Assembly: GCA_014763765.1 (NCBI GenBank)
Contig: JACXUT010000013.1
Location: 1-33,202 of the forward strand
Direction of reading: 5' to 3'
Length of the DNA: 33,202 nucleotides
Source of the DNA: Micrococcales bacterium
Lineage (GTDB): Bacteria; Actinomycetota; Actinomycetes; Actinomycetales; Cellulomonadaceae
Below are positions 4,259-28,908 of the stretch, piece by piece. The position numbers were made by a program, and so were the translations under genes. Each line of letters starts with the position of its first letter. The stretch's first letter is position 1. Below the pieces are notes generated by a model. The model was given only the letters and a program-made list of their open reading frames with translations. It made no database searches and was not told where the DNA came from.

Positions 4259-6931
4259 ATGGGGGCGGGACCCGGGGACGACGACGCGGCGGACCAGGTC
4301 CTCGACGCGCTGCGCGCCGGGACCGGGGCGCTGCTGACGGGTCTCGCGGGGTCGGGGGCGGGCGCGCTCGCCGAGCGGGCCGCGGGTGCGCTCGCGGAGG
4401 ACGGCTGGCAGGTGCTCCGGGTGCCGGGTCGTCCGGGCGTCCGCGGACGGCCGCTCGCGGCGCTCGCGCTGGCCGGGTGGGCGGCGCGCCCGGCGCCGGG
4501 TGACCCGCTGGGGCCGGCGACCGCGCGCGTGCTGGAGGCCGTCGGTGCCGGCCGCGCGGTGCTGCTGTCACGCCGTGCGGACCTGCTGGACGAGGAGTCC
4601 CGCGCGGTCCTCGCGACGGTGGCCGAGCAGACCGGCTCGCTGCCGCTGCTGACCTCCCGGCCGGCCCGCGCGAACCGGGTCGCCGCGTCGCGGGTCGCCG
4701 GCGCGGTGCCGTTGGCGGGCGTCGCCGTGCCGCCGCTGCGGTTCGACGCGCTGCTGGCGGTGCTGACCGAGGAGCTCGGCGGGCCGCCGGCGCCGGACGC
4801 CGCCGCCCGGGTGTACGCCCTGTCGGCCGGGGTGCCGGGCGTCGCGCGCGCGGTGGTCGCGGGGGCGCGCCGGGCCGGGCGGCTGGTGCTCGTCGACGGG
4901 GTGTGGACGGCGGTGGCCGACCTGCGCACGCCGGGACTCGTGACGGTCGTCGACGCGCTGCTGGAGGGACTCGACGGGCCGGCGCGGTCGGCGCTCGCGG
5001 TGCTGGCGACGCTCGGGCCCGCGAGCCCTGCCGTCGTGCGCCGGGTGCTCGAGTGGGACGACCTGGCCGCGCTCGAGGACGCCGGCGTCGTGCGGGTGGT
5101 CGACGCGGGGGATCGGACCGAGGTGGTCGTGGTGCCGCCGCTCGTGGCCGAGCACCTGCTGGCGGTGGGTGGACGCGTCGAGGCGGCGCGGGCCCGTGAG
5201 CAGGTGGAGCGGGCGCTGGCCGCGACCCCGGGCGGCGCGGGTGCCGCCGCGGGGGACGCCCGGGTGGCCGCCCCGGTCAGCGGGGTCGCCGGGGTGGCCG
5301 CCCCGGCGTCCGTCCCCGCAGCCGCGCCCGTTCCCGCCCCCGGGGGCGTCCCCGCAGCCGGCGCGCAGCCCGACGGCCCCGCTGCGCGGCCCGACCGCCG
5401 CGGCGCGCAGCCCGACGGCAGCGGTGCGCGGTGGGCCGAGTCCCGGGAGGGCGTCGCGGTGCTGGGGCGCGCGCTGCGTCGCGCCGCCGCCACCCGGCTC
5501 GCGGTGCGAAGGGCCGAGTGGGAGGACGAGCCGGACGCGGGCACGGCGGTGCCGTTCCTCGACGCGCTCGCCCGCGCCGGCGCCGACCGGCGCGAGGTGG
5601 AGGCCGCCGTCGCCGCCGCCCGGGACCGGGTCGGGTCGGCCGGTCGCGCGGCCGTGGACGAGTGGCACGCGCGCTACCTCGGCCTGGCGTGCGGCGAGGT
5701 GGACGCGGCGCTCGCGGTGCCGGTGCCGCAGGACGCCGCGGGTCGGCGGTCGCGGCGGCGGCTCGAGCTGCTGCTGGGCGTGGGCGCCGGCGCGCAGCAC
5801 GCGGGCGAGGACGGGGACAGGGGTGGGGAGCGGCCCGACGGCTGGCTGCTGCTCGCCCGCGGCCGTGCGCTCGACGCGCTGGACGCCCTCGACGCGACCG
5901 ACCCGCCGGCCGGGCCCACCGCGCCCGACCCCGACGAGCACGCCGCCCGCTGGCTGGCGGTGCTGCTGGCGGGTCGCATCGACGAGGCGGTCCGTGACGC
6001 GTCCCGGGCGCTGGACGAGGCGCGCGCCGCGCTGGACGGTCCCGCGATCGAGCTGGGGGCGGCGGTCGTCGCGCTGGGGCTGGCGCTCGCGGGCCGGTCG
6101 CGGGAGCTGCGCGAGCACCTGCCGGGCGCCCTGGCGCTGGGGTCGACGGCCCCGTTGCAGCCGTGGGCGCGCGCCGGGCTGCTGTGCATCGGGTCGTCCC
6201 TGGCCGCGGCGGACGGCCGGGTGGTCGCCGCGCAGGCGCTGCGGGACGGCCTGGTCGCGATGCGGCTGCCGGTCGGGCCGGTCCCGCTGACGTCGGCGAC
6301 GCTGGCGAGCACGCGGGTCATGGTCGCGTCGGGCACCGACCCGCGGCGGGACGCGGAGGCGCTGTGGGCGGAGGTCGAGCTGGACCTGGACCGCGGGTTC
6401 GTCCCCGCCGCGGTGCTGTCCGGGTCCGCCGCCGCCGAGGTGCTGCCCGACCACCCGTCGGCCGCCCGGGTCGCGGCAGCCGCGTCGCAGGCTCAGGGGA
6501 CGCTGCTGCCGGTGCTCGGGCGCTACGTCGCGGCGCTCGCCTCCGGCAGCCCGGACGAGGCCGCGCGCGTCGCGCCGGAGCTGCGGGCGGCCGGGCTGCG
6601 CGTGCACGCCGTCCGCGCCCACGCGCGCGCCGCCTCGCTCGCGGCGCTCCAGGGCGACCCGGCCGCCGCGCGGGAGCAGCTCCGGGCCGCCGAGGCGGTG
6701 ATCGCGGAGGCCGGGGGAGACCTCGACCGGGCGCTGGACGCGGTCGGGCCGGTCGCCGGGCTCAGCGCCCGCGAGCTGGAGATCGCCCGGCTCGTCGCAG
6801 GCGGAGCCTCCAACCGGCAGGTGGCGGAGACGCTCGGCGTGTCCGTGCGGACCGTCGACAACCACCTGTACCGGATCTACCGGAAGGTCGGCGTCAGCGA
6901 CCGCGAGAGCCTGGCCCGCCGCATCCACTGA
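4259..6931 (+). CDS. Large LuxR-family regulator with degenerate P-loop (LAL/MalT-like)
   Basis: An 890-aa protein built like LAL regulators: an N-terminal nucleotide-binding region, a long helical-repeat middle and a C-terminal LuxR helix-turn-helix (about 835-888; LSARELEIARLVAGGASNRQ, then TLGVSVRTVDNHL and RIYRKVGV). The P-loop equivalent near residues 26-40 reads TGLAGSGAGALAE, with Ala where the Walker A Lys should be, and the Walker B-like strand is AVLLSRRADLL without paired acids. ATP hydrolysis is therefore doubtful. A Pro/Ala/Gly-rich linker with internal repeats (about residues 328-392) separates the ATPase-like part from the Ala-rich helical repeats. It follows the two-component pair on the same strand, 77 bp away, and may share its regulon. 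If the ATG at 4181 is used instead, the protein gains 26 N-terminal residues. Confidence 0.85.
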   Translation: MGAGPGDDDAADQVLDALRAGTGALLTGLAGSGAGALAERAAGALAEDGWQVLRVPGRPGVRGRPLAALALAGWAARPAPGDPLGPATARVLEAVGAGRAVLLSRRADLLDEESRAVLATVAEQTGSLPLLTSRPARANRVAASRVAGAVPLAGVAVPPLRFDALLAVLTEELGGPPAPDAAARVYALSAGVPGVARAVVAGARRAGRLVLVDGVWTAVADLRTPGLVTVVDALLEGLDGPARSALAVLATLGPASPAVVRRVLEWDDLAALEDAGVVRVVDAGDRTEVVVVPPLVAEHLLAVGGRVEAARAREQVERALAATPGGAGAAAGDARVAAPVSGVAGVAAPASVPAAAPVPAPGGVPAAGAQPDGPAARPDRRGAQPDGSGARWAESREGVAVLGRALRRAAATRLAVRRAEWEDEPDAGTAVPFLDALARAGADRREVEAAVAAARDRVGSAGRAAVDEWHARYLGLACGEVDAALAVPVPQDAAGRRSRRRLELLLGVGAGAQHAGEDGDRGGERPDGWLLLARGRALDALDALDATDPPAGPTAPDPDEHAARWLAVLLAGRIDEAVRDASRALDEARAALDGPAIELGAAVVALGLALAGRSRELREHLPGALALGSTAPLQPWARAGLLCIGSSLAAADGRVVAAQALRDGLVAMRLPVGPVPLTSATLASTRVMVASGTDPRRDAEALWAEVELDLDRGFVPAAVLSGSAAAEVLPDHPSAARVAAAASQAQGTLLPVLGRYVAALASGSPDEAARVAPELRAAGLRVHAVRAHARAASLAALQGDPAAAREQLRAAEAVIAEAGGDLDRALDAVGPVAGLSARELEIARLVAGGASNRQVAETLGVSVRTVDNHLYRIYRKVGVSDRESLARRIH

Positions 6932-15969: not shown

Positions 15970-16184
15970 GGCGGGGGCGGATCTTGCGCGGCTGGCGCTG
16001 TGCATCGCGTCGCGCTCTCGAACGCGGTCCAGTTCGCCGGTCGCACGCTGACCCGCTCACCACCGGTACCCTGGCGGGGCGTCGGTGCGGGCCTTCCGGC
16101 TCACGCCGACGACGCACGGGCCGCACGACGGGGCCGGACCTGCACGACACCGTTCGAGCCGGTTCCGCAGTCGCGTCGGCCCGG
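15970..16184. other. Gap upstream of tRNA-Arg with possible tRNA promoter
   Basis: No coding region is supported. A TACCCT hexamer at 16067-16072 could be a -10 for the tRNA, but it would leave a leader of about 100 nt and its -35 is unclear. Confidence 0.3.
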
Positions 16185-16257
16185 GCGCCTGTAGCTCAGT
16201 GGATAGAGCACCGCTCTCCTAAAGCGGGTGTCGGCAGTTCGAATCTGCCCAGGCGCA
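16185..16257 (+). tRNA. tRNA-Arg(CCU)
   Basis: The 73-nt sequence folds as a standard cloverleaf. The acceptor arm is GCGCCTG with CAGGCGC (16185-16191, 16250-16256), followed by discriminator A16257. The D arm contains GCTCAGTGGATAGAGC. The anticodon arm CCGCT/AGCGG encloses CTCCTAA with anticodon CCT at 16218-16220, and the T arm is GGCAG-TTCGAAT-CTGCC. CCA is not encoded. It should read the rare Arg codon AGG. Its 3' half is the apparent insertion site of the element to the right, which rebuilt the gene intact. Confidence 0.97.
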
Positions 16258-16378
16258 CAGAGTGTTGTTGCAGGTCAGGGCCAGTATGGGCGCCGGGGCC
16301 GCTATCGGGACTGTGTCCGATTTGCCGGGCATTGGTCAGCGTGTGGTCAGCGACTTGTCTCAGGACGTGGACGGCCTG
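16216..16378. other. Left attachment region (attL): tRNA 3' half plus putative integrase arm repeat
   Basis: The tRNA part 16216-16262 matches 27888-27934 at 36 of 47 positions without gaps. Downstream, 16331-16375 again resembles 28015-28059. Inside it, 16333-16352 is a tandem decamer (TGGTCAGCGT, then GTGGTCAGCG), and the same 20-mer recurs with one mismatch at 27786-27805. Tandem direct repeats at this distance from the core look like arm-type integrase sites. The stretch 16263-16441 holds no gene. Confidence 0.6.
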
Positions 16379-16441
16379 TCAAGAACGTGGACGGACGCCG
16401 GCGAACGCTGCATGGCAACAGCTGTTCGCTCCGACGAGTCG

Positions 16442-16822
16442 CTAGCGCGCCATCGCACGCGCGGCAAACCCCGCCCCGGCCGAGAGGGCGCCAAGCGCGA
16501 GGGCGACGACGAGCCACCACTCGCCTGCGCGAAACGGGTCGCCATCCAGGGCGACTGAGATGAGGCCTCCACCCGCTAGCCCGAAGATGGTGAGGCCCGC
16601 GTTGGTCGCCAGGTCGGCGAAGAGGGTTGACCTCTTCCCGAGTCGGAGGTGCCGGGCGGCGGTTTCGACGTGGCCCGCCGAGACGGTGTCTGCATCGGCC
16701 CGTGCCGCGACGCGCTCGGCCTCGGCGAAGAGAGCTTCCGCATCTGCCTGAAGGGTACGTTCGCCCGCAGCCGTAGCGCGGTCTGACCAGGCGAGCGCCT
16801 TCCGCTGCACCGCGTTCACCAT
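16442..16822 (-). CDS. Small membrane protein of unknown function (126 aa)
   Basis: A 126-aa protein. The N-terminal two thirds are amphipathic and helical (KALAWSDRATAAGERTLQAD, EALFAEAERVAARADAD). Two hydrophobic segments follow, at about 69-88 (LATNAGLTIFGLAGGGLISV) and 97-121 (WWLVVALALGALSAGAGFAA), with a short basic end (RAMAR). No family is recognised. Its ATG overlaps the stop of the upstream membrane protein gene (ATGGTGA), so the two are translationally coupled, and both probably sit in the membrane with cytoplasmic tails. It is the first gene of the element next to the tRNA. The frame stays open far upstream on this strand, but the overlap and the AAGG before the ATG favour this start. 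Confidence 0.65.
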   Translation of the reverse strand: MVNAVQRKALAWSDRATAAGERTLQADAEALFAEAERVAARADADTVSAGHVETAARHLRLGKRSTLFADLATNAGLTIFGLAGGGLISVALDGDPFRAGEWWLVVALALGALSAGAGFAARAMAR

Positions 16823-17202
16823 CCTTCGCGGCCCGGTGATTGTGGGCCGGCTTCGTGTGCCGAGAGCGTCGCTTGCCACACCCGGACGGCCATCCTGGAA
16901 GCTTCTGCGCGACGGCGTTCCCGTCGCCCTGCCGTCAAGCCCAGGCGCGCGAGTTGGCCCGCTACGGCAATGGCGGTGATGGTTACCAGGACTGTCGCGG
17001 CCGCAGTGAGCGAGTCCGCGCGGGACGCGCCGGGCGAAGCGGCTGGGAAGATGACGGCCAGGACGCCGGCCGCTGCGGACACGACGGCACCTATGACGCT
17101 GACCACAACCTCGCTCCGACGACGGCGCTCGATGTCCGCCCCCATGGCGTGAGCACGCAGCTCGGCCCGCGTGAGGCGCCCACGCGAGTCTTCCTGGTTC
17201 AT
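16816..17202 (-). CDS. Small membrane protein of unknown function (128 aa)
   Basis: A 128-aa protein. A charged N-terminus (MNQEDSRGRLTRAELRAHAM, then GADIERRRRSE) is followed by two transmembrane helices at about 32-54 (VVVSVIGAVVSAAAGVLAVI) and 63-87 (SLTAAATVLVTITAIAVAGQ), then a basic cytoplasmic tail with GRRERRRAEASRMAVRVWQA. The ATG at 17202 is favoured because TATCGT lies 6 nt upstream on the minus strand, a leaderless layout. Divergent from the DGQHR gene across 253 bp and overlapping the next membrane protein gene downstream. The function is not recognised. The pairing of two small two-helix proteins in a mobile element could suit a membrane effector or holin-like role, but that is speculation. 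Confidence 0.65.
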   Translation of the reverse strand: MNQEDSRGRLTRAELRAHAMGADIERRRRSEVVVSVIGAVVSAAAGVLAVIFPAASPGASRADSLTAAATVLVTITAIAVAGQLARLGLTAGRRERRRAEASRMAVRVWQATLSAHEAGPQSPGREGW

Positions 17203-17338
17203 GCGGCGACGATAGCGACCCGGACCCAGCGGTGGGCCGCTGACGCGATGGAGCTGAAGCCAGGTCGTGGCCGACCAGCTGACGCTGCCGCACGCCACCG
17301 CAGCAGTCAACCGCGGGAGACGAGCTTGCGCCCGCTAA

Positions 17339-17411
17339 AGATCTGATCAGCCAGATCTGGCTGCCAGATCTGGTTGACAGATCTCGTGGTTCAGATCTAT
17401 CGTCTTGATCA
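17339..17411 (+). promoter_or_regulatory. Periodic AGATCT palindrome array over the DGQHR gene promoter
   Basis: AGATCT occurs at 17339, 17353, 17366, 17379 and 17393, and TGATCA at 17406; the steps are 14, 13, 13, 14 and 13 bp. An extra TGATCA overlaps the first copy (17344-17349). Four of the five AGATCT copies are preceded by C. A promoter sits inside the array: TTGACA (17374-17379), 18 bp, TATCGT (17398-17403). Regularly spaced palindromes through a promoter suggest a cooperative operator, possibly bound by the encoded protein; an iteron role is the alternative. Confidence 0.8.
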
Positions 17412-17455
17412 GGCGGGGGCGCTGGGTCCCCAGGGATGACGGAGGTGCGGAAGAG

Positions 17456-18682
17456 ATGACCACGAGCAGCGAGACCCTCAAGCGGGTCACGACGAGTAAG
17501 GACCTTGTTCTGTCCGGGGCGCTCGCCGTTCAGCGCGGGGTGCCGATGATGCAGACGTTCGGGCGGGCCACCGAGGTCGTCGAGCGTTCCAAGGCGGACA
17601 CGTACGACCCCGTGCAGAAGACGGGGTACCAGAGGGACCGGCAGATGCCGCGCGTGCGGAAGGCGGCCGAGTATTACCGGAGCGGCGGGCGGATGCCGAA
17701 CCCTCTTCTCGTGAACCTGCGCGAGGCGGATCTGACCCGAATCGAGGTCAGGATCATCTCTGGCGACAAGGCCGCTTACGACGAGGCGGTCGAGAACGGC
17801 GGGGACTGGATCGGCGTCGCGGAGCTGGTCATTCCGCAGGGCGTCACCATCTGGGTGTTCGACGGTCAGCACCGCGAGGGGGCGGTCGAGGAGCTGCTGG
17901 ACGGTGGCGACTTCGGGGAGTTCCCCGTCCCCCTGTCCATCACCATCGGGCTGGACACGGCCGAGGAGATGAAGGAGTTCTACGAGGTCAACCAGAACGC
18001 GAAGGCCGTCAAGACGGACCTCGCCTGGGAGCTCCTGCGTCTCATGGCCGAGGAGGACCCGGAGCTCGCCGAGTTGCTCGAGATCAAGGGCCAGGACTGG
18101 AAGACCCGCGGTGCCGACGTCACCGACGAGCTCATTGACCTCGGTGGCGTGTGGGCGGAGAGCATCCAGTCCGCCAACGTCCGGAAGCTCCCGAGTGACC
18201 GGCTGACCTTGAACAAGGCGCAGTTCATCCGGTCGCTCCAGCCGGTCCTGGCCATGCCGGCGCTCTCGAAGGCACCCGCGAAGGACATCGCCAGGATCCT
18301 CCACGCCTACTGGAACGGCATCGCTCGTGTGATGCCTGAGCCCTTCGACCCCGCCAACGACCCGAAGAAGTGGGTGATCCAGAAGGGGCCGGGCGCCATC
18401 GCGTTTCACCGCGTCCTTCCTCAGATCATCGAGGTCCTCCGCGCGAAGGGCCTGCGGCTCGCTGATCCGGAGGCCTACGCCGACGTGCTGAAGGAGCTGC
18501 CCACTCTTTCGGGTGAGATCGTCTACGAGGACGGTTCGGCGGCGATGGTCTCCGGCGCCGACTTCTGGCGCGCCGGTCCGGAGGGCGTGGCGTCCCAGTG
18601 GACGGGCGACGCCGGCCGGAAGCGGCTCGCCGTGCGGATCCAGGCGCTGCTGCCGAGGCCGTCCGAGGCCCTGGCCCTCTAG
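17456..18682 (+). CDS. DGQHR-domain (DndB-like / ParB-related) protein
   Basis: A 408-aa protein with the diagnostic DGQHR motif at 136-140 (TIWVFDGQHREGAVEEL), preceded by LVIPQGV and followed by IGLDTAEEMKEFYEVNQNAK, the second conserved block of DndB-like proteins. DndB family members are linked to phosphorothioate DNA modification and can regulate transcription; related DGQHR proteins occur alone in many mobile elements with no known job. No dndA, dndC, dndD or dndE is visible here, so this copy is an orphan. The ATG at 17456 is used (GGAGG 10 nt upstream, GAAGAG nearer); a TTG at 17405 is possible but lies inside the operator array. The gene ends at a strong palindromic terminator and is convergent with the integrase. 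Confidence 0.85.
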   Translation: MTTSSETLKRVTTSKDLVLSGALAVQRGVPMMQTFGRATEVVERSKADTYDPVQKTGYQRDRQMPRVRKAAEYYRSGGRMPNPLLVNLREADLTRIEVRIISGDKAAYDEAVENGGDWIGVAELVIPQGVTIWVFDGQHREGAVEELLDGGDFGEFPVPLSITIGLDTAEEMKEFYEVNQNAKAVKTDLAWELLRLMAEEDPELAELLEIKGQDWKTRGADVTDELIDLGGVWAESIQSANVRKLPSDRLTLNKAQFIRSLQPVLAMPALSKAPAKDIARILHAYWNGIARVMPEPFDPANDPKKWVIQKGPGAIAFHRVLPQIIEVLRAKGLRLADPEAYADVLKELPTLSGEIVYEDGSAAMVSGADFWRAGPEGVASQWTGDAGRKRLAVRIQALLPRPSEALAL

Positions 18683-18685
18683 CCC

Positions 18686-18717
18686 ACGGGGCCCCGCCGA
18701 CGTCGGCGGGGCCCCGT
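18686..18717. terminator. Bidirectional terminator, 32-bp perfect palindrome
   Basis: Positions 18686-18701 are the exact reverse complement of 18702-18717. It begins 3 nt after the DGQHR gene stop and lies 18 bp before the convergent integrase stop. The stem is very GC-rich and has no T-tract, as often seen in high-GC Actinobacteria. Confidence 0.8.
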
Positions 18718-18735
18718 CGCATCAGCGTGGCCTCC

Positions 18736-19917
18736 TCAACGCCCCGAGGGGCCCCGGGGCGTTGGGGAGGGTCGGCCCAGCCGAAGACCGCGGGTATCGA
18801 CCCACGGTGCCTCGATCGCCCGCGGCGCCTGCATCAGCGGTATCACCGGCAGCCGTTCCATCGCCTGCCACGTGGCCTCGCTGAACAGGTGCCCGTATAG
18901 GTCCATCGTCATCGTCGCGGTGGAGTGCCCGAGGATCACCTGCACCGCCTTCACGTCCGCACCGGCCGCGATCAGCAGCGACGCCGCGGTGTGCCGCAGG
19001 TCGTGGATCGTCGTCCCCACCACACCCGCCCGCCGGGTCGCCTCCATCCACCCCGACCGCGCCCGGAAGTTGGTGTTCGTCCACACACCCCCAGTCGGGC
19101 TCGGGAACAGGTACCCACCCGGCGCGGTGAAGGCGACCCGCGTCCGCACGTACTCGTCCAGCGCCGCCGGCACCGGCACGGTCCGCGTCTGGTGCGTCTT
19201 CGTCGGCCCGAACACCGCCCCGCTGGTCCGCTTGGACTGGGTAGCGGCCCGGTGCACGCGCACGCCGAGCCCGTGCGGGGTCTGGACGACGTCGTCGACC
19301 CGCAGCGCGGCCATCTCGGAGAACCGGCACCCCGTGGTCCCGAGGAACAGCACGACCGGCTGGCATAGCGGCGGCACCGCCATGACCAGCCGGCCGAGCT
19401 GCTCGGGCCGCAGCCAGTGCGGCTCGCGCTTGGTCCCCCCGCGCGGCAGCGCGACCATCCGCGCGACGTTCACGCTCAGCCGCCGGTCGCGGATCGCGTA
19501 GTCGAACACCAGCCGCATCATCGACAGCGCCCGGCGTCGCGTCGCCGTCGCGAGGCCGCGCGCCGTCAGCGCGGACATCACCCGTTCGACGTCGGCCGCC
19601 GAGATCCCGGAGATCGGGTACGCGCCGATCTCCGGGATCACGTACTTGTCGAGCAGGAACCGCGTGGTCTCCTGGCTGCGCACCGCCAGGTGACCACGCG
19701 AGGCCTGCCACTCCTCGGCCAGCGCCGCGAACGTCATCCGCCCGCGCGCCGGGTCGATCCACGATCCGGCGTCCAGCTTGGCGAGCTGGTCGGCCTCCCA
19801 GCGCTTGGCGTCGACCCGGCGCCCGAACGACCGCTGCGTGATGACCCGGCCCTCGAAGAACACCTTCGCGCGCCAGGTCACCTTCCCCGTCGGGTGCGCC
19901 CGCCTGGTGACGGACAT
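18736..19917 (-). CDS. Tyrosine site-specific recombinase (integrase)
   Basis: A 393-aa phage-type integrase. An N-terminal arm-binding/AP2-like domain (about 1-60; VTWRAKVFFEGRVITQRSF) and a SAM-like core-binding domain (about 62-145) precede the catalytic domain (about 165-355). All catalytic residues are visible: R198 in TTGCRFSE, K240 in GPTKTHQTR, H305 and R308 in HDLRHTAASL, H331 in GHSTATM, and the nucleophile Y341 in MDLYGHL. It should integrate the element at tRNA-Arg and, with the excisionase, excise it. The tail after about 355 is Pro/Arg-rich and not conserved. The ATG overlaps the excisionase stop by 1 nt (TGATG). The gene is central in the element rather than beside the attachment site. 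Confidence 0.95.
   Translation of the reverse strand: MSVTRRAHPTGKVTWRAKVFFEGRVITQRSFGRRVDAKRWEADQLAKLDAGSWIDPARGRMTFAALAEEWQASRGHLAVRSQETTRFLLDKYVIPEIGAYPISGISAADVERVMSALTARGLATATRRRALSMMRLVFDYAIRDRRLSVNVARMVALPRGGTKREPHWLRPEQLGRLVMAVPPLCQPVVLFLGTTGCRFSEMAALRVDDVVQTPHGLGVRVHRAATQSKRTSGAVFGPTKTHQTRTVPVPAALDEYVRTRVAFTAPGGYLFPSPTGGVWTNTNFRARSGWMEATRRAGVVGTTIHDLRHTAASLLIAAGADVKAVQVILGHSTATMTMDLYGHLFSEATWQAMERLPVIPLMQAPRAIEAPWVDTRGLRLGRPSPTPRGPSGR
18737..18764 (-). terminator. Hairpin at the 3' end of the integrase gene
   Basis: CAACGCCCC (18737-18745) pairs perfectly with GGGGCGTTG (18756-18764) around a 10-nt loop. It overlaps the stop codon of the integrase gene and probably ends the relaxase-to-integrase transcript. 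Confidence 0.55.
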
Positions 19918-20129
19918 CAGCGCCGCTTGACCGGCATCGTCGGCTCACGCTCGACCCACGCGGCCGGGAGGAGGATCACCGTGCTGAGCCGCCGGTACGG
20001 GATCTGCTCGTGCTCGACCAGGTGGTACAGCGTCCGGGGCAGCACCCCGAGCACCCGCGCCGCGTCCTTCACGCGGTAGTACTGCCGGGCCGGGGTGGCG
20101 GGGACAGTGTGCTGTGCGGTGGTGGTCAT
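19917..20129 (-). CDS. Excisionase-like helix-turn-helix protein
   Basis: A 70-aa protein with a MerR-like winged HTH: YYRVKDAARVLGVLPRTLYH (17-36), followed by LVEHEQIPYRRL and the hydrophobic wing STVILLPAAWVERE. This is the standard pattern of small DNA-binding excisionases encoded beside tyrosine integrases in actinobacterial mobile elements. It likely bends DNA at the attachment sites and biases recombination toward excision. A good ribosome site (AAGGAGAAGG) precedes the ATG. The stop overlaps the integrase ATG, so the two are made together. It lies 36 bp downstream of the relaxase stop, probably in one operon. Confidence 0.85.
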   Translation of the reverse strand: MTTTAQHTVPATPARQYYRVKDAARVLGVLPRTLYHLVEHEQIPYRRLSTVILLPAAWVEREPTMPVKRR

Positions 20130-20165
20130 GACCTTCTCCTTCTGTTGGGTTGGGTGTGGCGGTGG

Positions 20166-23057
20166 TCAGCGACCGAGCACCGGTCCATCGGCGGACGACG
20201 ACGGCGGCGCGGTCAACGGGTGCAGTGCAGGCTGTGGAGGCCAGGCGTTCCACGGCTGCTGTGGATGCACGGGCGGCACGAGGGGCGCGGCCCGGCCGGG
20301 GTGGTAGGTGTCCCAGGTCTCGGTGGCGATGGGCTCGGCGTGGCTGGTCGCGAGGATCTGCTCGAGCACCTCTCGGCCCGACGACGGCGCCTGGCCCGGC
20401 AGGCACTCCGGGTCGCCCTGGTCGACGACGACGTAGGTCCGGTTGGTGTGGCGGCCGCGGCTCATCGCGACGTACAGGTCCTCGCGGCCCATGCCGGGGG
20501 TGGCGATGGTGTGGGTCTCGTCGACGGTCATGCCCTGGGTACGGGCGATGGTCGTGGCGTAGCCGAGCTCGACGTGCTCGGCGACGTAGTCGGCGGGCAG
20601 CCGGACGGTGGCCGCGTCGGCGCCGCTGGCAGGCTGGACGCGGAGGGACCCGTCGGGCAGGACGGCGGTGACGTTCCACAGGGCGCCGTTGCGGACGAAC
20701 CCGTCGGCGGTGGTCAGGCGGCGGTGGTTGCGCCGAGTGACGATCCGGTCGCCGACGCCGGCCGTCAGCCCGTCGTGCAGGCTCACGCCGGTGGGGCCGA
20801 CGTCGCCGGTGGTGATGCGGTCTGTGCGGATGCGGGCGTTGAGCTCGCGGACGGTCCGGTTGTCGACGGCCTGCAGCACCGCGACCCGGCCCTCGCTGCT
20901 CGCGTTGGTGACGGAGTCGATGGCGGCGTCGAGCATCGCGTCGTGCCCGCCGGAGGCGATCGCGCCGTGCGCCTCGTAGGCGTCGAGCGCCGACGGATGA
21001 CCGCGGCGCAGCTCGAGGCTCGCCCGAGCCTCCCAGGGGTAGGCGAACCGCCAGAGGCTGGTCAGCTCGGCGGTGGGCCCACGGCGGGCGAGCATGCCGA
21101 ACGCCCCGCCGGCGTCGACCGACCCACGCTGCAGGTGGTCCCCGACCAACAGGACCTTCGCCGTCGCTGCCCGAGCCTGCTCGACGATCGCAGCCAGGGT
21201 CCGGGTGTCGGCGAGGGAGGCCTCGTCGACGATGACCAGCTGGCCAGGGGAGAACCGCCACTGGTCCTGCTGGGCGCGGAGCCGCCAGTGCTCCTCGTTG
21301 GCTGCACGCATCTCGCGGTAGTCCCCGGGCGCCATGCGGGCGAGGGCGTCGGCGTAGCGCAGGGCGCGGGTGGCGGCGCCGTCGCCGGTGGACTCGTGCA
21401 GCCACTTCGCGGTCGTCTCGCACGGCACGCCGAGCGACCCCGCCAGCGCCCGGGCCGCGGTGGCCGACGGCGCCAGCCCGACCACGGACCCGATGCCGTG
21501 CCCCCAGAACGAGGTCAATGCGGCAAGGGTGGTGGTCTTGCCCGACCCGGCCGGCCCGACGAGCACGTCGAGGAGCCGGCCGGAGGTGATGACGGCCTCC
21601 GCGGCCGCGCGCTGGTCGGGGGCGAGGGCGCCGAGGTGTTGCTCGGTGCGCAGCGGGATGGCGCCGAGCATCTCCGCCGGCCTGTGCGGTGCGCCAGCGG
21701 TCTCGGCGGCGTCGATGAGCGCCTTCTCCGCGCCGAGCAGCTCGGTCGAGGTGAACAGCGACTCCCCGACACGGCGCGTCATCGGGTCGCGGTTGTCGTC
21801 CAGGTGCACGCACGCCGCGGCGGCGTCAGTGGTGACCTCGTTGAGCAGCGTCCGCCGCTCCACGGCGGAGGCCATCCGTAGCAGCTTCGAGGCGCGGACG
21901 GCAGCGGCGCCGAGGTTCCACGTCGTCCACACCGACCGCCGCGTCGAGACGTCATCGAGCACCTGGGCGACCATCGCCGCGCGCACCTCCGGGCCGACGT
22001 CGTGCGCGTGCAACGCCCGCCCGTAGGCGCCGGCCAGCGCGCGCGCCGCAAGGTCGTGCGGCTCGAGCCCGGTGAGCGCGCGGGCGCGGTTCGCCCAGTC
22101 GGCCAACACATCCGCGAGCGGCCGCACCGTCTTCGGCGGCCGCGTCGCCCGCGTCAGGTGCTGCCGTGCCCGGGTCGTCTCCACTCGGGTCGGCGCCCGG
22201 CCATGGGTGGCCTCGAACTCGGCGAGCCACTCCTGCTCGGCGCAGTGGATCGCCTCCGCGCGCGTCGAGAAGTGCGCGAGCAGGTCCTCGCCGATGCGGT
22301 CGACCTCGAACGCCGGGTTCCGGCGCGGGCCGCGGTCGCGCATCGACCACTCCACGGGCAGCCGCCGCGCCAGCTCGTCCGCGAGCAGCGCGTCATACAG
22401 CTCGGACACGGTGACGACCGCGGCATGCACCGTCCGCCCGTCCAGGCTGCGCCACGCGCCGTCGGGCCCCTGAACCTTGTTCGCGATGACCACGTGGGTG
22501 TGCAGGTTCGGGTCCCCGGCCCGGGTGTCCCAGTGGTCGAACGCCGCGGCGACCATCCCGCGGGTGCGGACCTGATGACGGCCCCCGTCGCCAATGCGCG
22601 TGCGGATGACGCGCTGCTCGACGAACTCCAGCGATGACGCCAACGCCGCCCGGTGCGCGTCATAGACGATCACGCGCGTCGCGTCATCGGCCAGCGCCCA
22701 CAAGACGGAGACGGACTTCGGCGCGGTGAACGTCAGGTCGTAGCCCACGACGGCGTGACGCTTTCCGTCATCGAAGCGGCTATAGGGCCGGCCGAGCGCG
22801 TCATCGGTGAGCGGGTCTGCGCCGTCGCGGAACACGGCCGTCATCGCCGCCTCGGTGACGACATCGCCAGCCCGGAGCCGCCGCCTCATGTCACCGAGGC
22901 CGGCAAGGCCTTCGCCGTACCAGCGGCCGGCCGGGTTGCCGGTCTGCTCGTAGTAGGCGGTCAGTGACGCACCCTGCTCGAGACCGGCGTCGCCCGCGGC
23001 GACGTGCCGGGTCAGGTAGGCGTACCCGTCCCCAGCCGTCAGCTTGTGCATCGACAT
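20166..23057 (-). CDS. MobF-family relaxase with RecD-like helicase domain (TraA-like)
   Basis: A 963-aa conjugative relaxase-helicase. The N-terminal TrwC-type relaxase domain (about 1-300) starts MSMHKLTAGDGYAYLTRHVA, with Y14 as a candidate nicking tyrosine. It shows YDLTFTAPKSVSVLWAL and the three-His metal motif HWDTRAGDPNLHTH. The C-terminal superfamily 1 helicase has Walker A GPAGSGKTTT, Walker B LVIVDEAS, VLLVGDHLQ and the late motif YVAMSRGRHTNRTYV. It would nick at oriT and unwind the transferred strand. ATG 23057 is chosen (GGGAGGTGG upstream; the protein begins directly with the relaxase motif). It is shorter than many MobF proteins, and the C-terminus is a Pro-rich tail. No secretion channel genes accompany it. 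Confidence 0.93.
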   Translation of the reverse strand: MSMHKLTAGDGYAYLTRHVAAGDAGLEQGASLTAYYEQTGNPAGRWYGEGLAGLGDMRRRLRAGDVVTEAAMTAVFRDGADPLTDDALGRPYSRFDDGKRHAVVGYDLTFTAPKSVSVLWALADDATRVIVYDAHRAALASSLEFVEQRVIRTRIGDGGRHQVRTRGMVAAAFDHWDTRAGDPNLHTHVVIANKVQGPDGAWRSLDGRTVHAAVVTVSELYDALLADELARRLPVEWSMRDRGPRRNPAFEVDRIGEDLLAHFSTRAEAIHCAEQEWLAEFEATHGRAPTRVETTRARQHLTRATRPPKTVRPLADVLADWANRARALTGLEPHDLAARALAGAYGRALHAHDVGPEVRAAMVAQVLDDVSTRRSVWTTWNLGAAAVRASKLLRMASAVERRTLLNEVTTDAAAACVHLDDNRDPMTRRVGESLFTSTELLGAEKALIDAAETAGAPHRPAEMLGAIPLRTEQHLGALAPDQRAAAEAVITSGRLLDVLVGPAGSGKTTTLAALTSFWGHGIGSVVGLAPSATAARALAGSLGVPCETTAKWLHESTGDGAATRALRYADALARMAPGDYREMRAANEEHWRLRAQQDQWRFSPGQLVIVDEASLADTRTLAAIVEQARAATAKVLLVGDHLQRGSVDAGGAFGMLARRGPTAELTSLWRFAYPWEARASLELRRGHPSALDAYEAHGAIASGGHDAMLDAAIDSVTNASSEGRVAVLQAVDNRTVRELNARIRTDRITTGDVGPTGVSLHDGLTAGVGDRIVTRRNHRRLTTADGFVRNGALWNVTAVLPDGSLRVQPASGADAATVRLPADYVAEHVELGYATTIARTQGMTVDETHTIATPGMGREDLYVAMSRGRHTNRTYVVVDQGDPECLPGQAPSSGREVLEQILATSHAEPIATETWDTYHPGRAAPLVPPVHPQQPWNAWPPQPALHPLTAPPSSSADGPVLGR

Positions 23058-23090
23058 CACGGGCTCCACCTCCCTCGCGACCCCGTCGCT

Positions 23091-23132
23091 ACCTGCAGGT
23101 GTGCGGCAGCGGGGGAGAAGATGCGCACCTGC
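23091..23132. other. Candidate oriT inverted repeat upstream of the relaxase
   Basis: Positions 23095-23104 and 23123-23132 are 10-bp inverted arms with one mismatch (GCAGGTGTGC versus GCGCACCTGC) around 18 nt, and ACCTGCAGGT at 23091-23100 is itself palindromic. Related AGGT/ACCT motifs continue to about 23185. MobF systems commonly carry oriT next to the relaxase gene. The nick site cannot be read. Confidence 0.35.
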
Positions 23133-23245
23133 CGCCGCAACGGCGTTCAGGTAGAGGTGTGCCAGCCGACCTACCAACGTGAGGTACCGCTCTGCGCCGC
23201 CGGCGCGTGGCCACCTCGAGACGGGGGATGCGGCACGATCGGCTC

Positions 23246-23701
23246 ATGGCGACTGTGCACGAAGCACCTCTGCCCGCGGACGGGATCACCGATGCTCTGC
23301 ATGCCTTCAGGGCTGAACTCGCTGCGACGCTTGGTGACGTCGCCAGCGTCACCTGGGACGGCGACCTCACCGTCGAGGGCTGCAACGTCGAACCGGCGGC
23401 CGAGTCGGCCGTCAGCGTCGGGTGGGTGCACTCGGCGGAGGACATCGTCGCCACCCTCGGACGTGCGCCGGGCTGGGACCTACCGCGGTCACCGGACGGT
23501 CTGAAGACTCTGCACGCCATCGTTGACGCGGCCGTTCACGGCGAGGTTGAGGTCGGCACCGGGCGTGGCCTGACCGTCTACCGTGTGCGGACGCCGGGCG
23601 GGACAGTGCTGGAGGACACGCACGAGGGACTCGCCGGATTCCTCATGTCGATGCCGTGGAAGCCGCGACTGCGATGGGCGACCGCCACGGCCTACAGGTA
23701 G
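23246..23701 (+). CDS. Hypothetical protein (151 aa)
   Basis: A 151-aa soluble protein, no family recognised. It is acidic in the first two thirds (TLGDVASVTWDGDLTVEGCN, WVHSAEDIVATLGRAPGWDL) and has beta-strand-like stretches later (GEVEVGTGRGLTVYRVRTPG), ending at a basic tail (WKPRLRWATATAYR). There is no signal peptide or membrane segment. The ATG at 23246 is preferred because CACGAT lies 6 nt upstream (leaderless layout) and no ribosome site is visible; the in-frame ATG at 23228 is an alternative. It is divergent from the relaxase and faces the SIR2-like gene convergently across a 316-bp gap. It could be cargo of the element. Confidence 0.6.
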   Translation: MATVHEAPLPADGITDALHAFRAELAATLGDVASVTWDGDLTVEGCNVEPAAESAVSVGWVHSAEDIVATLGRAPGWDLPRSPDGLKTLHAIVDAAVHGEVEVGTGRGLTVYRVRTPGGTVLEDTHEGLAGFLMSMPWKPRLRWATATAYR

Positions 23702-24017
23702 CGACAAGGCACCGGCGCAGAGCCCGCCTGCTCGATCCGCCAGACCTGGCACGCGACCCGGGTCACGACCCTGATGCCGGCCGGAGCACCGATGACGGAC
23801 CGCGACTCTTCTTGCATCTATGCGCTGTTGGTGGCGCCGGGTCGCTCCGAGGCCCCGCAGCGCCACCTCGACCCCCTGAATAGAAGACCAACCCGGATGA
23901 CCGCGACTCCGCAGAGCAGGGCACGCGACACCGCTTGTATGGGCGCCCGCTCGCTTCGATCGGTTGCACACCTCGTACTTCCGCACCGTGCCAGAGGACG
24001 ACGGACGTGCCCCTTGG
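23702..24017. other. Noncoding gap between the 151-aa gene and the SIR2-like gene
   Basis: Open frames here (for example the GTG/ATG frame from 23774) show no recognisable protein and run into the antisense of the SIR2-like gene. No clear repeat, promoter or terminator was found. It may be degraded former coding sequence. Confidence 0.4.
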
Positions 24018-27000
24018 TCAGTAGTGCCTGTCGAACCCGCTCTCGGTCGCCGCGGCGACGAGGGGCTGGACCGCGGCGTCTCCGAGCACTTCTCGCATAT
24101 TGTCGATCAGGTCCTGCACCTGATGCGGAACGAGATAGCCGGTGGGTGAAGAGTTCCGGATTCGTTGAACGTAGTGCTCAACGAGGGTCGGTCCGTGCTC
24201 GAGCAGCACCCCATCGGGAAAGTCGGGATCGAAGAACCGGTCGCCCAAGCCGATTCCCCGTCCACCAAGCACGCCCGATGCTTCCGGTATTGCCGCCCCA
24301 AGATGCGGCAATGCGTCCGCCCAACGAGCGAGTTCCTCCAGCTCTGCTGTTCGCGGAATCCCGGCGAGCCGAGCCCTCACGTGATCACCGAGCCAACGTT
24401 CCCATACTGCTGCCCCGTCGACGCGGTCGGACTGCAGCAGGCGAACAGCTGCTTCCGCGAACTCTGCGGCGTGTGCGCCGTCGTTGGCGAGGACGCTGCG
24501 GTCTAGGAGGGCCTGTCGCTCTTCGACGCTGATCCCGGCTACGGCGACTATCGATGCGACCAGCCCGAGGAACTGATCTCGCAATCGGTCATCAAGATCC
24601 CCAAGGCGATCCCATTCCGCCATCACGCCCTCGAGCAGCCCAGCGCCCAGCAACTTATCGTTGTATCGCGGGTGGTGCAGATACGGAGACCACGCGAGCC
24701 TCGCCGTTGCGTCTTCCAAGAACAAGGGGATGACGCGCTCGATTGCGAAATCGGGGTCGGCGGCGAACAGGAAAAAGAGCCCACTTGCAACTGCCGGTTG
24801 CGTGGCGTCGAGTGTGTCGTCGGTGCCTTGAAGCAACAGCCCCAGCGCGGCGCGTTCCTGTTCGCTGAGGCCCGACCAACCGTCTCGGTTGTGCCGCCAA
24901 CGGCGGTCGATCTCGCCTATCCAGTACTGCGCCAGCTCCCCCGGCCACGAATTAAGGTATAGGGGCGCAAAAGAGACAGGATCCAGATCCTGCGGGTGGG
25001 TGAAGGACGCGCTGTGCTCATGCCATAGCGCGAGCGCGACGTCGCGCATCGCGGCGAGCGCCGGTGTCTCATCGAAATCGGCCTGCGACCGCACCTGCTC
25101 GAAGAGGAACCGGCTGATCGTGCGTGCGGACTCTACATCTCCTACAAGTTCCGATACTCGCGCCACAGCCGTTTCGGCGTAGGCAGCCAAGTCCGCCTTT
25201 GCCCAGCCGCCGGCCAGGGCTCGCCGAATGTCAGCCGCTTGCTCATCGGCCCGCTCAGCGATCAGACGCCACATCTGTTCGCCCACATCGGGACGGGCCT
25301 CTGCGACCCGGCTGACGAGAGAAAGAGCGTCCTCCCATCTCGGCTGATCGAAGGCTCGCTCCGAGTAGTCGCGACTCACGAGGTCTTGGAGTGCATCTGC
25401 CGGGTCATTCTCGAACGACTGCACAAAGTCGTCCGGCTCCATGGGGAACTTCCCGCCCCAGGTTCCGCTTGACATCCAGCGGTCGAAGTCCGGGTGCTCT
25501 CGCGGCGCGAAATCAGGGTTTGCCTCTTGCGCGGCCTCAAGCTCGCTGGCCGCATCCCGCCATTCCGACGCGACGTCAGTGAGCCAGACCAGGGCGTTAT
25601 ATCTTGCGTACGCGATATGACGGTCGAGATCGGGTATTTCTTCGGACACTGATGGGCCTGCAAGGACGGCCGCCAGGAGTCGATCGCGGGCTGAGTCAGA
25701 GGCCAACGGGGTGGCGGCCTGCAGTACTTGGTATACCTCGTGCTTTAAGCCGGTCTTGTAGATCAGCGACCTGTCCAGCAACCATGAGATCTTCTCATCG
25801 GGGTCGCGAGACTGGTCTCGGGCCAGGAGGTGGAGTGCGAGACGCTGGAAGAGCTCCCGACCGAGTGACCACCACCGCTCCGGCAAGTCGGCGAGAACGG
25901 GCAGTGCCTTCTCGCCGTACGCTCGCAGTCCGTCGATCACGGCGTCGAGAGGGTCGGGGAACTCGTCCTGTGGGTGCGGTTCAATTGCTGAACGCCCGAA
26001 GCTCAGGCTGTCCCACTCCCTCGGCCCAAAGTATGCGCCGAGCAAGTCGTAGGCAGCGCTAAGGGCGTCTTCAAGAAGGCTCTCGAGCGCGGGATCGCCA
26101 GGCTCAGACGCCTCGATAATTCTCGAAATTTGGCTGGTGAGGCTCTCCGCCGCGGTGCTCCATCGGGCTTCGGCATCCGGAGGTGCAGTCGCTGATTCCG
26201 CCTCGCTGAGGAACCACCGTCGCTTCAACGCCAAGCGTGGCCGCAGCGCAGATCTCAACACGGAGACGTGCTCCGCGTGATCGCCGGGGACATATGCCAG
26301 CAACCAATCCGTTTCCACTGGAGCCGAGTGACCATGGATGGAGCTCGCAAGAAGCACCTTCCAGCGTCGCCCGGCGTCGGCGTCCTTCTTGCCTAGCTGG
26401 TCCGCCGCCCAGCAGGCACCTCGAAAGAGTGCGTCCGAGAACGCTTGTCCTAGGCGCTGCACGGTCTGTAAGGCCGCACCGTGTAGTTCGGGCGATGTGA
26501 TGAAGACGCTGCAGAACCAGTTGACAAGGGTTGGCTCCGCTTCGCCACCGCGCCCACCGGCGAAGATCGACCTAAACCCCGAGAGGTCCTCTGCCCATTG
26601 AAGCCAGGCCAACTTGTGGTCGAGGACGGCGTTTTCGACCGCCGCGGCGAAGTGGCGAGCGCCGTCTGTAGTCGCGAGCCGGTCAGCAAGATAATCACGA
26701 TCGACTGGGGTCATCTCCGGGCCGGCGTCGATGATTTCGATCATGCGCGACTGGTGGTCCGTCTGACCCATTCGGGCACGTACGTCCCACGCCTGAAGTG
26801 CCGCGACGAGGGCGGTATGATCATCGCCAACTACTGGATAACCAATCGTGCCCACGCCCAGTCGCTCCCATTTTGGGTCTGCTGCATGGTGTAGCGGCGT
26901 GAAGGCGAAGCGCAGCGTCCGCGGCGGAAGTCCGAGCGCAAGGTAGCGCATGATCGGGTCGTCGTGGCTGTATCCGACGAATACTACGGTGTACTCCTGG

Positions 27001-27557
27001 AACATCGGCAACAAGAACCGTGTGGCCCAGCCCCGAGTCAAGTAGGCTCGTCCAAAATCGGTATCGGTGAGGACGAGCTCGCGCGGATCTCGGCGCACCG
27101 AGCCGTGCAGGTGGACGAGGCCGATGAATTCGTCGCCGAGGGGAAGCGAGGGCCCGAACCACGTGTCGCGCACCTCCACCCCCGCATCGGCCGCCGCGGA
27201 AAGTAGGTGATCGTCGAAGTTCGTGGTAACGATGCGCACATCCCCGGTGGAAGATGCCAGTCGCACGAGCGCGGTGTGCGTGGCGTTGGGCAACGAACCA
27301 GCTCGGCCGATCAGATCGCGCGTGTGTGCGTGGGTGTCGAATCCGGCAGGTAGTTCTCCGAGGAAGGTGTCGAGGTTTGTGGTGTCCGCGAACGGAATCC
27401 GGGCCATGCTCGCCAACTCGCGAGCCAGGCCGGTGAACGATGGCAGGCTGGATGGCGGACCCATTGATGCACCGGCACCGACGAAGAAGACCAGGTGCCC
27501 CGCGGCATGCGCGTCGATGACGGCCTGCGGTAGCTCCACCTCACTGGTGATCCACAT
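24018..27557 (-). CDS. SIR2-like NAD-hydrolase-type protein with long C-terminal region (SIR2/DUF4020 type)
   Basis: A 1179-aa protein from the ATG at 27557 (GCGGAG just upstream), or 1194 aa from the ATG at 27602. Numbered from the longer form, the N-terminal SIR2-like domain shows the NAD-binding LVFFVGAGASMG (37-48), IVTTNFDDHL (124-133), the catalytic-type LVHLHGS (162-168) and VVFVGYSHDDPIMRYL (206-221). The remaining 900 residues are mostly helical and Trp-rich and match the layout of SIR2 proteins with a C-terminal DUF4020 region; this family name is from memory. SIR2-like effectors deplete NAD upon phage infection in several defence systems (DSR, Thoeris, SIR2-HerA, short pAgo). The gene has visibly more A/T-rich codons than the backbone, indicating transfer. 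No partner gene is obvious. Confidence 0.85.
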   Translation of the reverse strand: MWITSEVELPQAVIDAHAAGHLVFFVGAGASMGPPSSLPSFTGLARELASMARIPFADTTNLDTFLGELPAGFDTHAHTRDLIGRAGSLPNATHTALVRLASSTGDVRIVTTNFDDHLLSAAADAGVEVRDTWFGPSLPLGDEFIGLVHLHGSVRRDPRELVLTDTDFGRAYLTRGWATRFLLPMFQEYTVVFVGYSHDDPIMRYLALGLPPRTLRFAFTPLHHAADPKWERLGVGTIGYPVVGDDHTALVAALQAWDVRARMGQTDHQSRMIEIIDAGPEMTPVDRDYLADRLATTDGARHFAAAVENAVLDHKLAWLQWAEDLSGFRSIFAGGRGGEAEPTLVNWFCSVFITSPELHGAALQTVQRLGQAFSDALFRGACWAADQLGKKDADAGRRWKVLLASSIHGHSAPVETDWLLAYVPGDHAEHVSVLRSALRPRLALKRRWFLSEAESATAPPDAEARWSTAAESLTSQISRIIEASEPGDPALESLLEDALSAAYDLLGAYFGPREWDSLSFGRSAIEPHPQDEFPDPLDAVIDGLRAYGEKALPVLADLPERWWSLGRELFQRLALHLLARDQSRDPDEKISWLLDRSLIYKTGLKHEVYQVLQAATPLASDSARDRLLAAVLAGPSVSEEIPDLDRHIAYARYNALVWLTDVASEWRDAASELEAAQEANPDFAPREHPDFDRWMSSGTWGGKFPMEPDDFVQSFENDPADALQDLVSRDYSERAFDQPRWEDALSLVSRVAEARPDVGEQMWRLIAERADEQAADIRRALAGGWAKADLAAYAETAVARVSELVGDVESARTISRFLFEQVRSQADFDETPALAAMRDVALALWHEHSASFTHPQDLDPVSFAPLYLNSWPGELAQYWIGEIDRRWRHNRDGWSGLSEQERAALGLLLQGTDDTLDATQPAVASGLFFLFAADPDFAIERVIPLFLEDATARLAWSPYLHHPRYNDKLLGAGLLEGVMAEWDRLGDLDDRLRDQFLGLVASIVAVAGISVEERQALLDRSVLANDGAHAAEFAEAAVRLLQSDRVDGAAVWERWLGDHVRARLAGIPRTAELEELARWADALPHLGAAIPEASGVLGGRGIGLGDRFFDPDFPDGVLLEHGPTLVEHYVQRIRNSSPTGYLVPHQVQDLIDNMREVLGDAAVQPLVAAATESGFDRHY

Positions 27558-27642
27558 GGGTCTCCGCTCGTCTGGAACAAACTCGCGTGCGCGCCCGGCC
27601 ATGCGCGGAGTGAGCGCGTGGGAGGTACGACTGACCGCTTCA

Positions 27643-27671
27643 AGATCGCCTAGTCGCGCTCAAGTCGTCAA
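27643..27671 (-). promoter_or_regulatory. Possible promoter of the SIR2-like gene
   Basis: On the minus strand TTGACG (27666-27671) is followed after about 17-18 bp by CGATCT/GATCTT. The -35 is good and the -10 is poor. Confidence 0.3.
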
Positions 27672-27785
27672 CCGTTGGCCGGTGTGGCTCAGCACCGCAG
27701 CTCGCCCACCCGTGATTGCGCCTCCGGCCGTGGCTGGATCGCGTCTCGCCGGGGCCCGCCTGGCAGAGGGCTAGCGGGCGCCCCG

Positions 27786-28062
27786 TGGTCAGCGCGTGGT
27801 CAGCGGCCACCCCGGAACGGGGTCGCCGCACGGACTACCCGCATGTAATTCCGCAGGTCAGGGCGCTATCCACAGACCAAGATCGAACTCCAAGAGCGGG
27901 TGTCGACGGTTCATGTCTGTCTAGGCTTACAGAGGCGGGCCAGCGAGGCGTCATTACAGTTCAGGGGGACATCGGCGCCGCGTACGCCGCGGGGGCCATT
28001 TCCGTTTGGTGAGCGTTGGTCATCGGGTGGTCGGTGGCATGTCTCGAGATGTGGACGGGCCC
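27786..28062. other. Right attachment region (attR) with decayed tRNA-Arg 3' half and arm repeats
   Basis: The 20-mer at 27786-27805 matches the putative arm repeat at 16333-16352 with one mismatch. Positions 27888-27934 match the tRNA-Arg 3' half (anticodon loop to beyond the discriminator) at 36 of 47 positions; 8 of the 11 differences are transitions, and AGCGGGTGTCG (27895-27905) is intact. Similarity resumes at 27954-27980 and 28015-28059 with sequence downstream of the real tRNA. The copy cannot fold as a tRNA. The whole gene-free stretch 27603-28309 contains this and no supported gene. Confidence 0.65.
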
Positions 28063-28309
28063 GTCAAGGTCATTGCTGTGCGCCTCCGGGCGTCTGCGTT
28101 GACTGGAAGCGGCGCGGCGATTCGTCCTACGCGTAGCCCGCTGGATCGGTGAGGTCACGTCGCGGGACCTCTCGGCGGCGGACTGAGGCGAGCTCAGCGC
28201 GGGGTCTTGCTCGACCTGCAGGACCGGGCGCACGAATGAAGCGTCGGACTTAGCAGGTGGACTCCGTTCTCTGCCCCGCGCCGCATCTCGCGGTGCAAGA
28301 CTCACCGGC

Positions 28310-28885: not shown

Positions 28886-28908
28886 GTCGTCGCGACGCTG
28901 CCCAGGGT

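Follow-up and report, generated by a model that had tools for sequence, protein, structure and literature searches.

The AGATCT array in front of a DGQHR gene

The locus described here lies in a 33,202-nucleotide stretch of actinomycete DNA (contig JACXUT010000013.1; 'the window' denotes this whole stretch) from a 4.07-Mb genome of 99.87% completeness. The window holds a gene for a 408-residue DGQHR-domain protein (17456..18682, + strand, start codon inferred), in front of which the palindrome AGATCT is repeated at regular steps. Five copies are present, at 17339..17344, 17353..17358, 17366..17371, 17379..17384 and 17393..17398, with steps of 14, 13, 13 and 14 bp, as an earlier note on this DNA had described. 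The note had also let a terminal TGATCA carry the array on, and this word indeed stands at 17406..17411, in step with the array (13 bp) and near the expected transcription start. Another TGATCA (17344..17349), absent from the note, has its first T in common with the first AGATCT; it is out of step and possibly incidental.

The array is beyond chance. AGATCT occurs eight times in the window against 2.17 expected (standard deviation 1.49), a count that none of 100 shuffles reached (maximum 7). The remaining three copies (2714, 25787 and 26250) stand singly, which bears out the earlier claim that the array is found nowhere else in the window, and a run of at least three at 13 or 14 bp is seen for no other palindromic hexamer in the window. 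Among 20,000 stretches of 251 bases simulated by an order-1 Markov model with local composition, a palindromic-hexamer run of two arose in 123 and a run of three in none. Throughout the genome, two AGATCT words separated by seven or eight bases were matched four times on the forward strand, each time within the array; the reversed pattern, used as a control, gave no match.

By consensus match, a −35 element TTGACA is located at 17374..17379 and a −10 element TATCGT at 17398..17403 (both + strand, 18-bp spacer). Together they agree with the consensus at 10 of 12 positions and represent the sole promoter-like site reported by a scan of 17200-17520. The array was said to overlap both elements, and it does so by a single base at each: the fourth site opens with the final A of the −35, and the fifth ends on the initial T of the −10. 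Further downstream, GGAGG (17441..17445, + strand) is, judged from the sequence, a likely ribosome-binding site.

The array is kept in a relative from Specibacter cremeus

Six exact peptide patterns were run against 84,980 species genomes (a number given by the description of the set, from which our own genome was possibly excluded) and returned 20 stretches. One of these, L002 from Specibacter cremeus, an actinomycete of the Micrococcaceae, encodes the only clear full-length relative found of the window protein, with 50% identity over residues 19-408 (E = 9e-125). Its promoter bears AGATCT at 4867, 4881, 4894 and 4907 (steps 14, 13 and 13), at the same promoter positions as the second to fifth sites of the window. 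When the transcription start is placed 7 nt past the −10 in both loci, the sites are centred at about −54, −41, −28 and −14 and agree within 1 bp, the window having one extra site upstream. At both loci, the final AGATCT and the −10 have one T in common, the last base of the former and the first of the latter, and 18 bp separate the −35 from the −10. The Specibacter elements are weaker, with 8 of 12 consensus matches by hand count, and were not reported by the promoter scan. The in-step TGATCA of the window (17406..17411) has no counterpart there and is possibly incidental. A second AGATCT array was not found in the Specibacter genome. The observation is thus real, and it is conserved in the only close relative that the search brought up.

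The two loci have the same hexamers but not the same spacers between them: GGCTGCC, GGTTGAC and CGTGGTTC in the window stand against CATGTAGC, GTTGATT and GCAGTGA in Specibacter. The window spacers also differ from each other, and this pattern speaks against a functionless expansion of a tandem repeat. Such expansions do exist. Three AGATCT words in this pattern occur in 53 viral stretches, 50 of which have near-identical spacers (by script pattern, 39 with one spacer type, 11 with other near-identical spacers and three with differing ones), and in one of 267 other genomes of the order (G337) a triple with nearly repeated spacers separates the ends of two convergent genes. Weighing both sides, we disfavour a functionless expansion and regard it as most improbable here. 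The viral triples were also rejected as members of the same system, as they are mostly plain tandem repeats and tblastn at E ≤ 1 detected no DGQHR relative near any of the 53, in a run that recovered the positive controls L001, L002 and L078. In 39 of the 53 stretches (viral contigs within L014-L066, e.g. L018 5619-5704), the repeat is the 13-bp unit AGATCTTAGTCTT or its reverse, and many of these repeats adjoin ACGCGCACGCGTATATGAAG or a variant of it.

The genes around the array were also compared. A tblastx alignment of window positions 16259-28900 with 12 kb of the Specibacter contig gave, among the matches listed, strong matches in the DGQHR gene only, the others being short pieces of at most 30 bits. 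As the DGQHR gene is the only clearly common gene among these matches, array and gene appear to have travelled or stayed together while the neighbourhood changed, through a divergence of the protein to 50% identity. This co-conservation is our main reason to propose that the array is bound by the DGQHR protein.

The array marks a small branch of the DGQHR family

The window protein, used as query at E 0.001, had matches in 3 of 221 genomes of its family and in 6 of 396 of its order, our own genome being included in both counts; of the two other family genomes, one gave a C-terminal match of 54 residues and the other a weak match. A two-protein profile had matches in 4 of the 395 Specibacter-family genomes, counting Specibacter, and in 5 of the 394 genomes of the class, counting our own. 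These four sets overlap; the 221 family genomes were taken without subsampling, and those of the Specibacter family were drawn from more than 395, which suggests that the host of the window belongs to a family other than that of Specibacter. The matches beyond our own genome and Specibacter were distant and scored at most 30 bits. Of 296 class genomes (own genome included), 30 had a match to the DGQHR domain model itself, 16 of them over the cut-off.

Other DGQHR-family loci were scanned for a comparable arrangement. A promoter-wise scan excluded 13 of 30 TIGR03187 loci that had no open frame of more than 200 residues bearing a DGQHR-like motif, and yielded a single AGATCT at L088 and a non-palindromic, unrelated GGCCGC three times at L091. 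As its upstream windows began at open-frame ends or at the first M or V, so that a promoter could escape them, whole loci were scanned. None of 50 other loci (199,429 bases, with at least four second copies of genes already present and with the 13 loci lacking a DGQHR-like motif) had two AGATCT at 13 or 14 bp, nor did a palindromic hexamer recur three times at 12-15 bp in any of them. AGATCT pairs and hexamer triples were likewise absent from eight further loci (L003, L004, L074, L120, L123, L124, L125 and L128). With the array at 2/2 full-length loci and at 0/50 others, it marks this small branch and is no general feature of the DGQHR family. The search of homologue promoters for AGATCT at 13-14 bp, which the earlier note had proposed, accordingly came out positive for the one full-length relative, which has the same array in the same register, and negative for distant members of the family.

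On the side of mobile elements, the window protein had no match among 50,697 phage records at E 1e-5, and its 16 matches in plasmid records all show 24-32% identity and less than 80% coverage. The Specibacter protein matched five phage records at E 0.01 and ten plasmid records at E 1e-5, none with 80% coverage. No array was seen at the 8 of 31 phage and plasmid record matches that were checked (H1, H17, H18, H20, H22, H24, H26 and H31), with one lone AGATCT near the gene of H31. A search of IMG/VR with the exact patterns of the window protein returned nothing; two alignments returned two and three distant loci, one of the three being new, and one distant locus used as query returned three further loci beyond itself.

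Two side observations concern distant relatives. In a genome of the same genus (G085), L120 4747-4863 encodes a stretch of 39 residues with 51% identity to the C-terminal end of the DGQHR protein, with the rest of the gene and the array absent; this is perhaps the remnant of a lost relative. Three Rhizobium/Mesorhizobium plasmids (L129, L130 and L131) are alike in carrying, in one common order, genes for a helicase, a protein with a ParB N-terminal domain, a DGQHR protein, a radical S-adenosylmethionine protein and an ATP-binding protein.

The DGQHR protein has a predicted ParB-like N-terminal domain

The proteins of both loci exceed the cut-off of the DGQHR domain family TIGR03187 (58.85 bits), with 78.3 bits for the window protein and 87.8 bits for that of Specibacter. 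The window protein also passes the Pfam model for DndB, PF14072 (38.2 against a gathering score of 29.1), and matches a ParB-like partition family of the PHROGs (1.2e-5) and, as its single PADLOC match, DpdB (2e-11). The models for specific members were not reached: at E 0.01 the window protein is unlisted for DndB (TIGR03233, equivalog cut-off 328 bits), for which the Specibacter protein scores 16.7 bits, the two proteins score 39.1 and 37.5 bits for DpdB (NF041060, equivalog cut-off 300 bits), and the window protein stays far below the cut-off of DGQHR_dnd_1.

The DGQHR letters correspond to residues 136-140, and GQHR (137-140), identical in Specibacter, fits the P motif GxxR (Box II) of the ParB-CTPase fold as defined in the excerpt of PMC12704722. 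A structure model built from six sequences (A2; mean predicted local distance difference test score, pLDDT, 53.5) is usable for the N-terminal domain alone, and this predicted domain may resemble the ParB-CTPase fold; a model from two sequences (A1; pLDDT 42.2) was set aside. The two-protein profile A1 gave no match at E ≤ 10 in a sequence search of solved structures.

The array as putative operators of the DGQHR gene

DGQHR and DndB-like proteins occur in defence and mobile loci, and the present gene is an orphan member. We consider it probable that the DGQHR protein uses the AGATCT sites as operators to repress the promoter of its own gene. The arrangement is consistent with such binding and repression, and would amount to a DndB-like autoregulation with an operator array of its own, apparently outside phosphorothioation. 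Self-binding had been put forward in the earlier note and stands as the best available idea: it fits the co-conservation of array and gene as well as the autoregulation of Salmonella DndB (PMC4507180, excerpt), and we infer the binding itself. In such a scheme, a DGQHR dimer would contact each palindrome, or a neighbouring pair of AGATCT words as half-sites 13-14 bp apart. Dimers could then line up next to one another over the 60 bp of the array until the −35 and −10 are covered, so that enough protein would exclude RNA polymerase, and the multiple sites may make the response steep. For the binding protein, the earlier note had conjectured a wrapping oligomer. By analogy to DndB, nucleotide binding in the ParB-like N-terminal domain could set whether the protein holds or releases the DNA.

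The closest precedent comes from Salmonella enterica Cerro 87, where DndB is described as an autoregulator of dndBCDE with palindromic sites in its own promoter (PMC4507180, excerpt). Shared features are the DGQHR motif, palindromes in the protein's own promoter and the half-site spacing of 14 bp, compared to 13-14 bp here (same excerpt), together with a ParB-like protein (PMC12704722, excerpt). In contrast, the Salmonella promoter has two TACGN10CGTA regions instead of five AGATCT sites (PMC4507180, excerpt), and its dndB is in an operon with dndCDE, whereas DndC was not found in our genome and the DndB equivalog cut-off is unreached. In Streptomyces lividans, DndB also negatively regulates dndB, according to the excerpt of PMC6186775.

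DpdB, the DGQHR protein of the dpd cluster for 7-deazapurine modification, is comparable in its domain and as the sole PADLOC match, but the score is far from that cut-off, and an integrase and a relaxase adjoin the DGQHR gene here; no dpd genes were recognised among the seven window proteins scanned. MetJ binds short palindromes in tandem across a promoter as side-by-side dimers, which resembles the present layout; its boxes are, however, 8 bp apart, and the protein is of the ribbon-helix-helix type. KorB of plasmid RK2, a ParB-fold repressor with a CTP clamp, can be compared without a demonstrated sequence relation to the DGQHR protein; KorB also acts on distal promoters and together with KorA. 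A literature search found no published description of an AGATCT array before a DGQHR gene.

Several points weigh against autorepression. The main weakness is that array and gene have been seen together at two loci only. No DNA-binding domain was identified in the DGQHR protein. The Salmonella operator TACGN10CGTA is absent from window positions 17200-17460 and from 4700-4970 of the Specibacter stretch, and DndC (TIGR03183) had no match in our genome at E 0.001 (a weak positive control, as the 14 control genomes together gave five sub-cut-off matches and none above the cut-off), so that nothing ties the gene to a Dnd system. According to the excerpt of PMC6186775, an inverted repeat in the S. 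lividans dndB promoter acts positively and is possibly bound by a protein other than DndB, and the excerpt of PMC10853773 keeps open that DndB acts as an NTPase or nuclease effector. A conserved host regulator is possible as well.

The sites might, indeed, serve another regulator, encoded by the host or by the element, that controls the DGQHR gene. The geometry of array and promoter suits any multi-site repressor, the sequence does not identify the trans-acting factor, and the S. lividans repeat thought to be bound by a non-DndB protein (PMC6186775, excerpt) would be a parallel. Both hosts are rich in G+C (74% in the window, 65% in the Specibacter stretch) and Specibacter, too, is an actinomycete, which makes a common host factor conceivable. 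Yet neither genome has a further AGATCT pair at 13 or 14 bp, and hence no multi-site regulon is visible; moreover, the DGQHR gene alone is clearly common to both neighbourhoods, among the matches listed. We therefore regard control by another regulator as rather unlikely, though well worth keeping in mind beside autorepression by the DGQHR protein.

A more elaborate version of autorepression, which we hold to be doubtful, takes the array as a loading strip for a nucleotide-gated, ParB-fold DGQHR protein that would nucleate there, oligomerise or clamp in one nucleotide state and release in another, its own expression thereby reporting the nucleotide pool or its depletion by an invader. If true, DGQHR genes that sit as orphans on mobile, defence-rich elements would be self-limiting switches that sense nucleoside triphosphates, use an operator code of their own and work apart from DNA phosphorothioation. 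With some 70 bp of DNA and a single 408-residue protein, the locus offers a cheap substrate for two questions: whether orphan DGQHR proteins, like DndB, are autorepressors with sequence specificity and nucleotide control, and whether DNA is read as an array by the ParB-CTPase fold here.

DNA modification as a possible switch

As each site contains GATC, modification of this word could turn the promoter on or off. All seven GATC between 17330 and 17420 lie within AGATCT or TGATCA words (the whole window has 164), and elsewhere in the genome there is one gene for a D12-class adenine methylase (L121 80-2373, G000:C340), which by eye directly follows a ParB-like gene; these two could be a small modification module. 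What is kept at fixed steps is, however, the entire AGATCT and not GATC alone, the specificity of the D12 methylase is unassigned, and DndC, which phosphorothioation requires, was not found. Control by methylation or phosphorothioation, as the earlier note had considered, is unsupported by these results, and we judge a modification switch to be very unlikely.

The gene is part of a putative mobile element

On an insert beside a tRNA-Arg gene (16185-16258), the DGQHR gene stands between this tRNA gene and the genes for an adjoining tyrosine integrase (18736-19917, − strand) and a TrwC relaxase (20166-23177, − strand). In a genome of the same species (G078), the tRNA-Arg site (C1:1570380-1581708) is occupied by roughly 11 kb of largely different DNA, in which one 118-bp stretch matches window positions 27780-27897 at 79%, and the DGQHR protein has no match in that genome. 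The tRNA-Arg gene is thus an insertion hot spot, and the DGQHR gene appears to belong to a mobile element. This setting, together with the predicted ParB-like N-terminal domain, would suit a partition or replication site of the element, similar to parS or to iterons, in place of a promoter operator. Against this, the array keeps one fixed register with the DGQHR promoter at both loci, and relaxase and integrase have no clear tblastx match in 12 kb of the Specibacter contig, among the matches listed. We find a partition or replication site highly improbable and keep to operators of the DGQHR promoter.

The insert further encodes a SIR2_2-domain protein (Pfam) of 1194 residues (24018-27602, − strand), which resembles the anti-phage sirtuin Dsr1 (PADLOC 3.5e-45; NCBI 202 bits, below the cut-off of 1400) and probably belongs to the insert as defence cargo. 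In Specibacter, the pieces on either side of the gene make another defence-like setting: L002 4272-4574 (− strand) is similar to the Cap12 NAD+ hydrolase of cyclic-oligonucleotide-based anti-phage signalling systems (CBASS), and L002 6281-6841 (+ strand) possibly encodes an NYN-domain protein, both below the NCBI cut-off.

A riboswitch or other structured RNA was rejected, as Rfam at gathering thresholds gave the tRNA alone in 16100-18800. Two small genes (16442-17202, − strand) are divergent from the DGQHR gene and encode, by eye, membrane proteins. The nearer of the two, which has the array some 140 bp upstream, had no match in Pfam, NCBIfam or PHROG.
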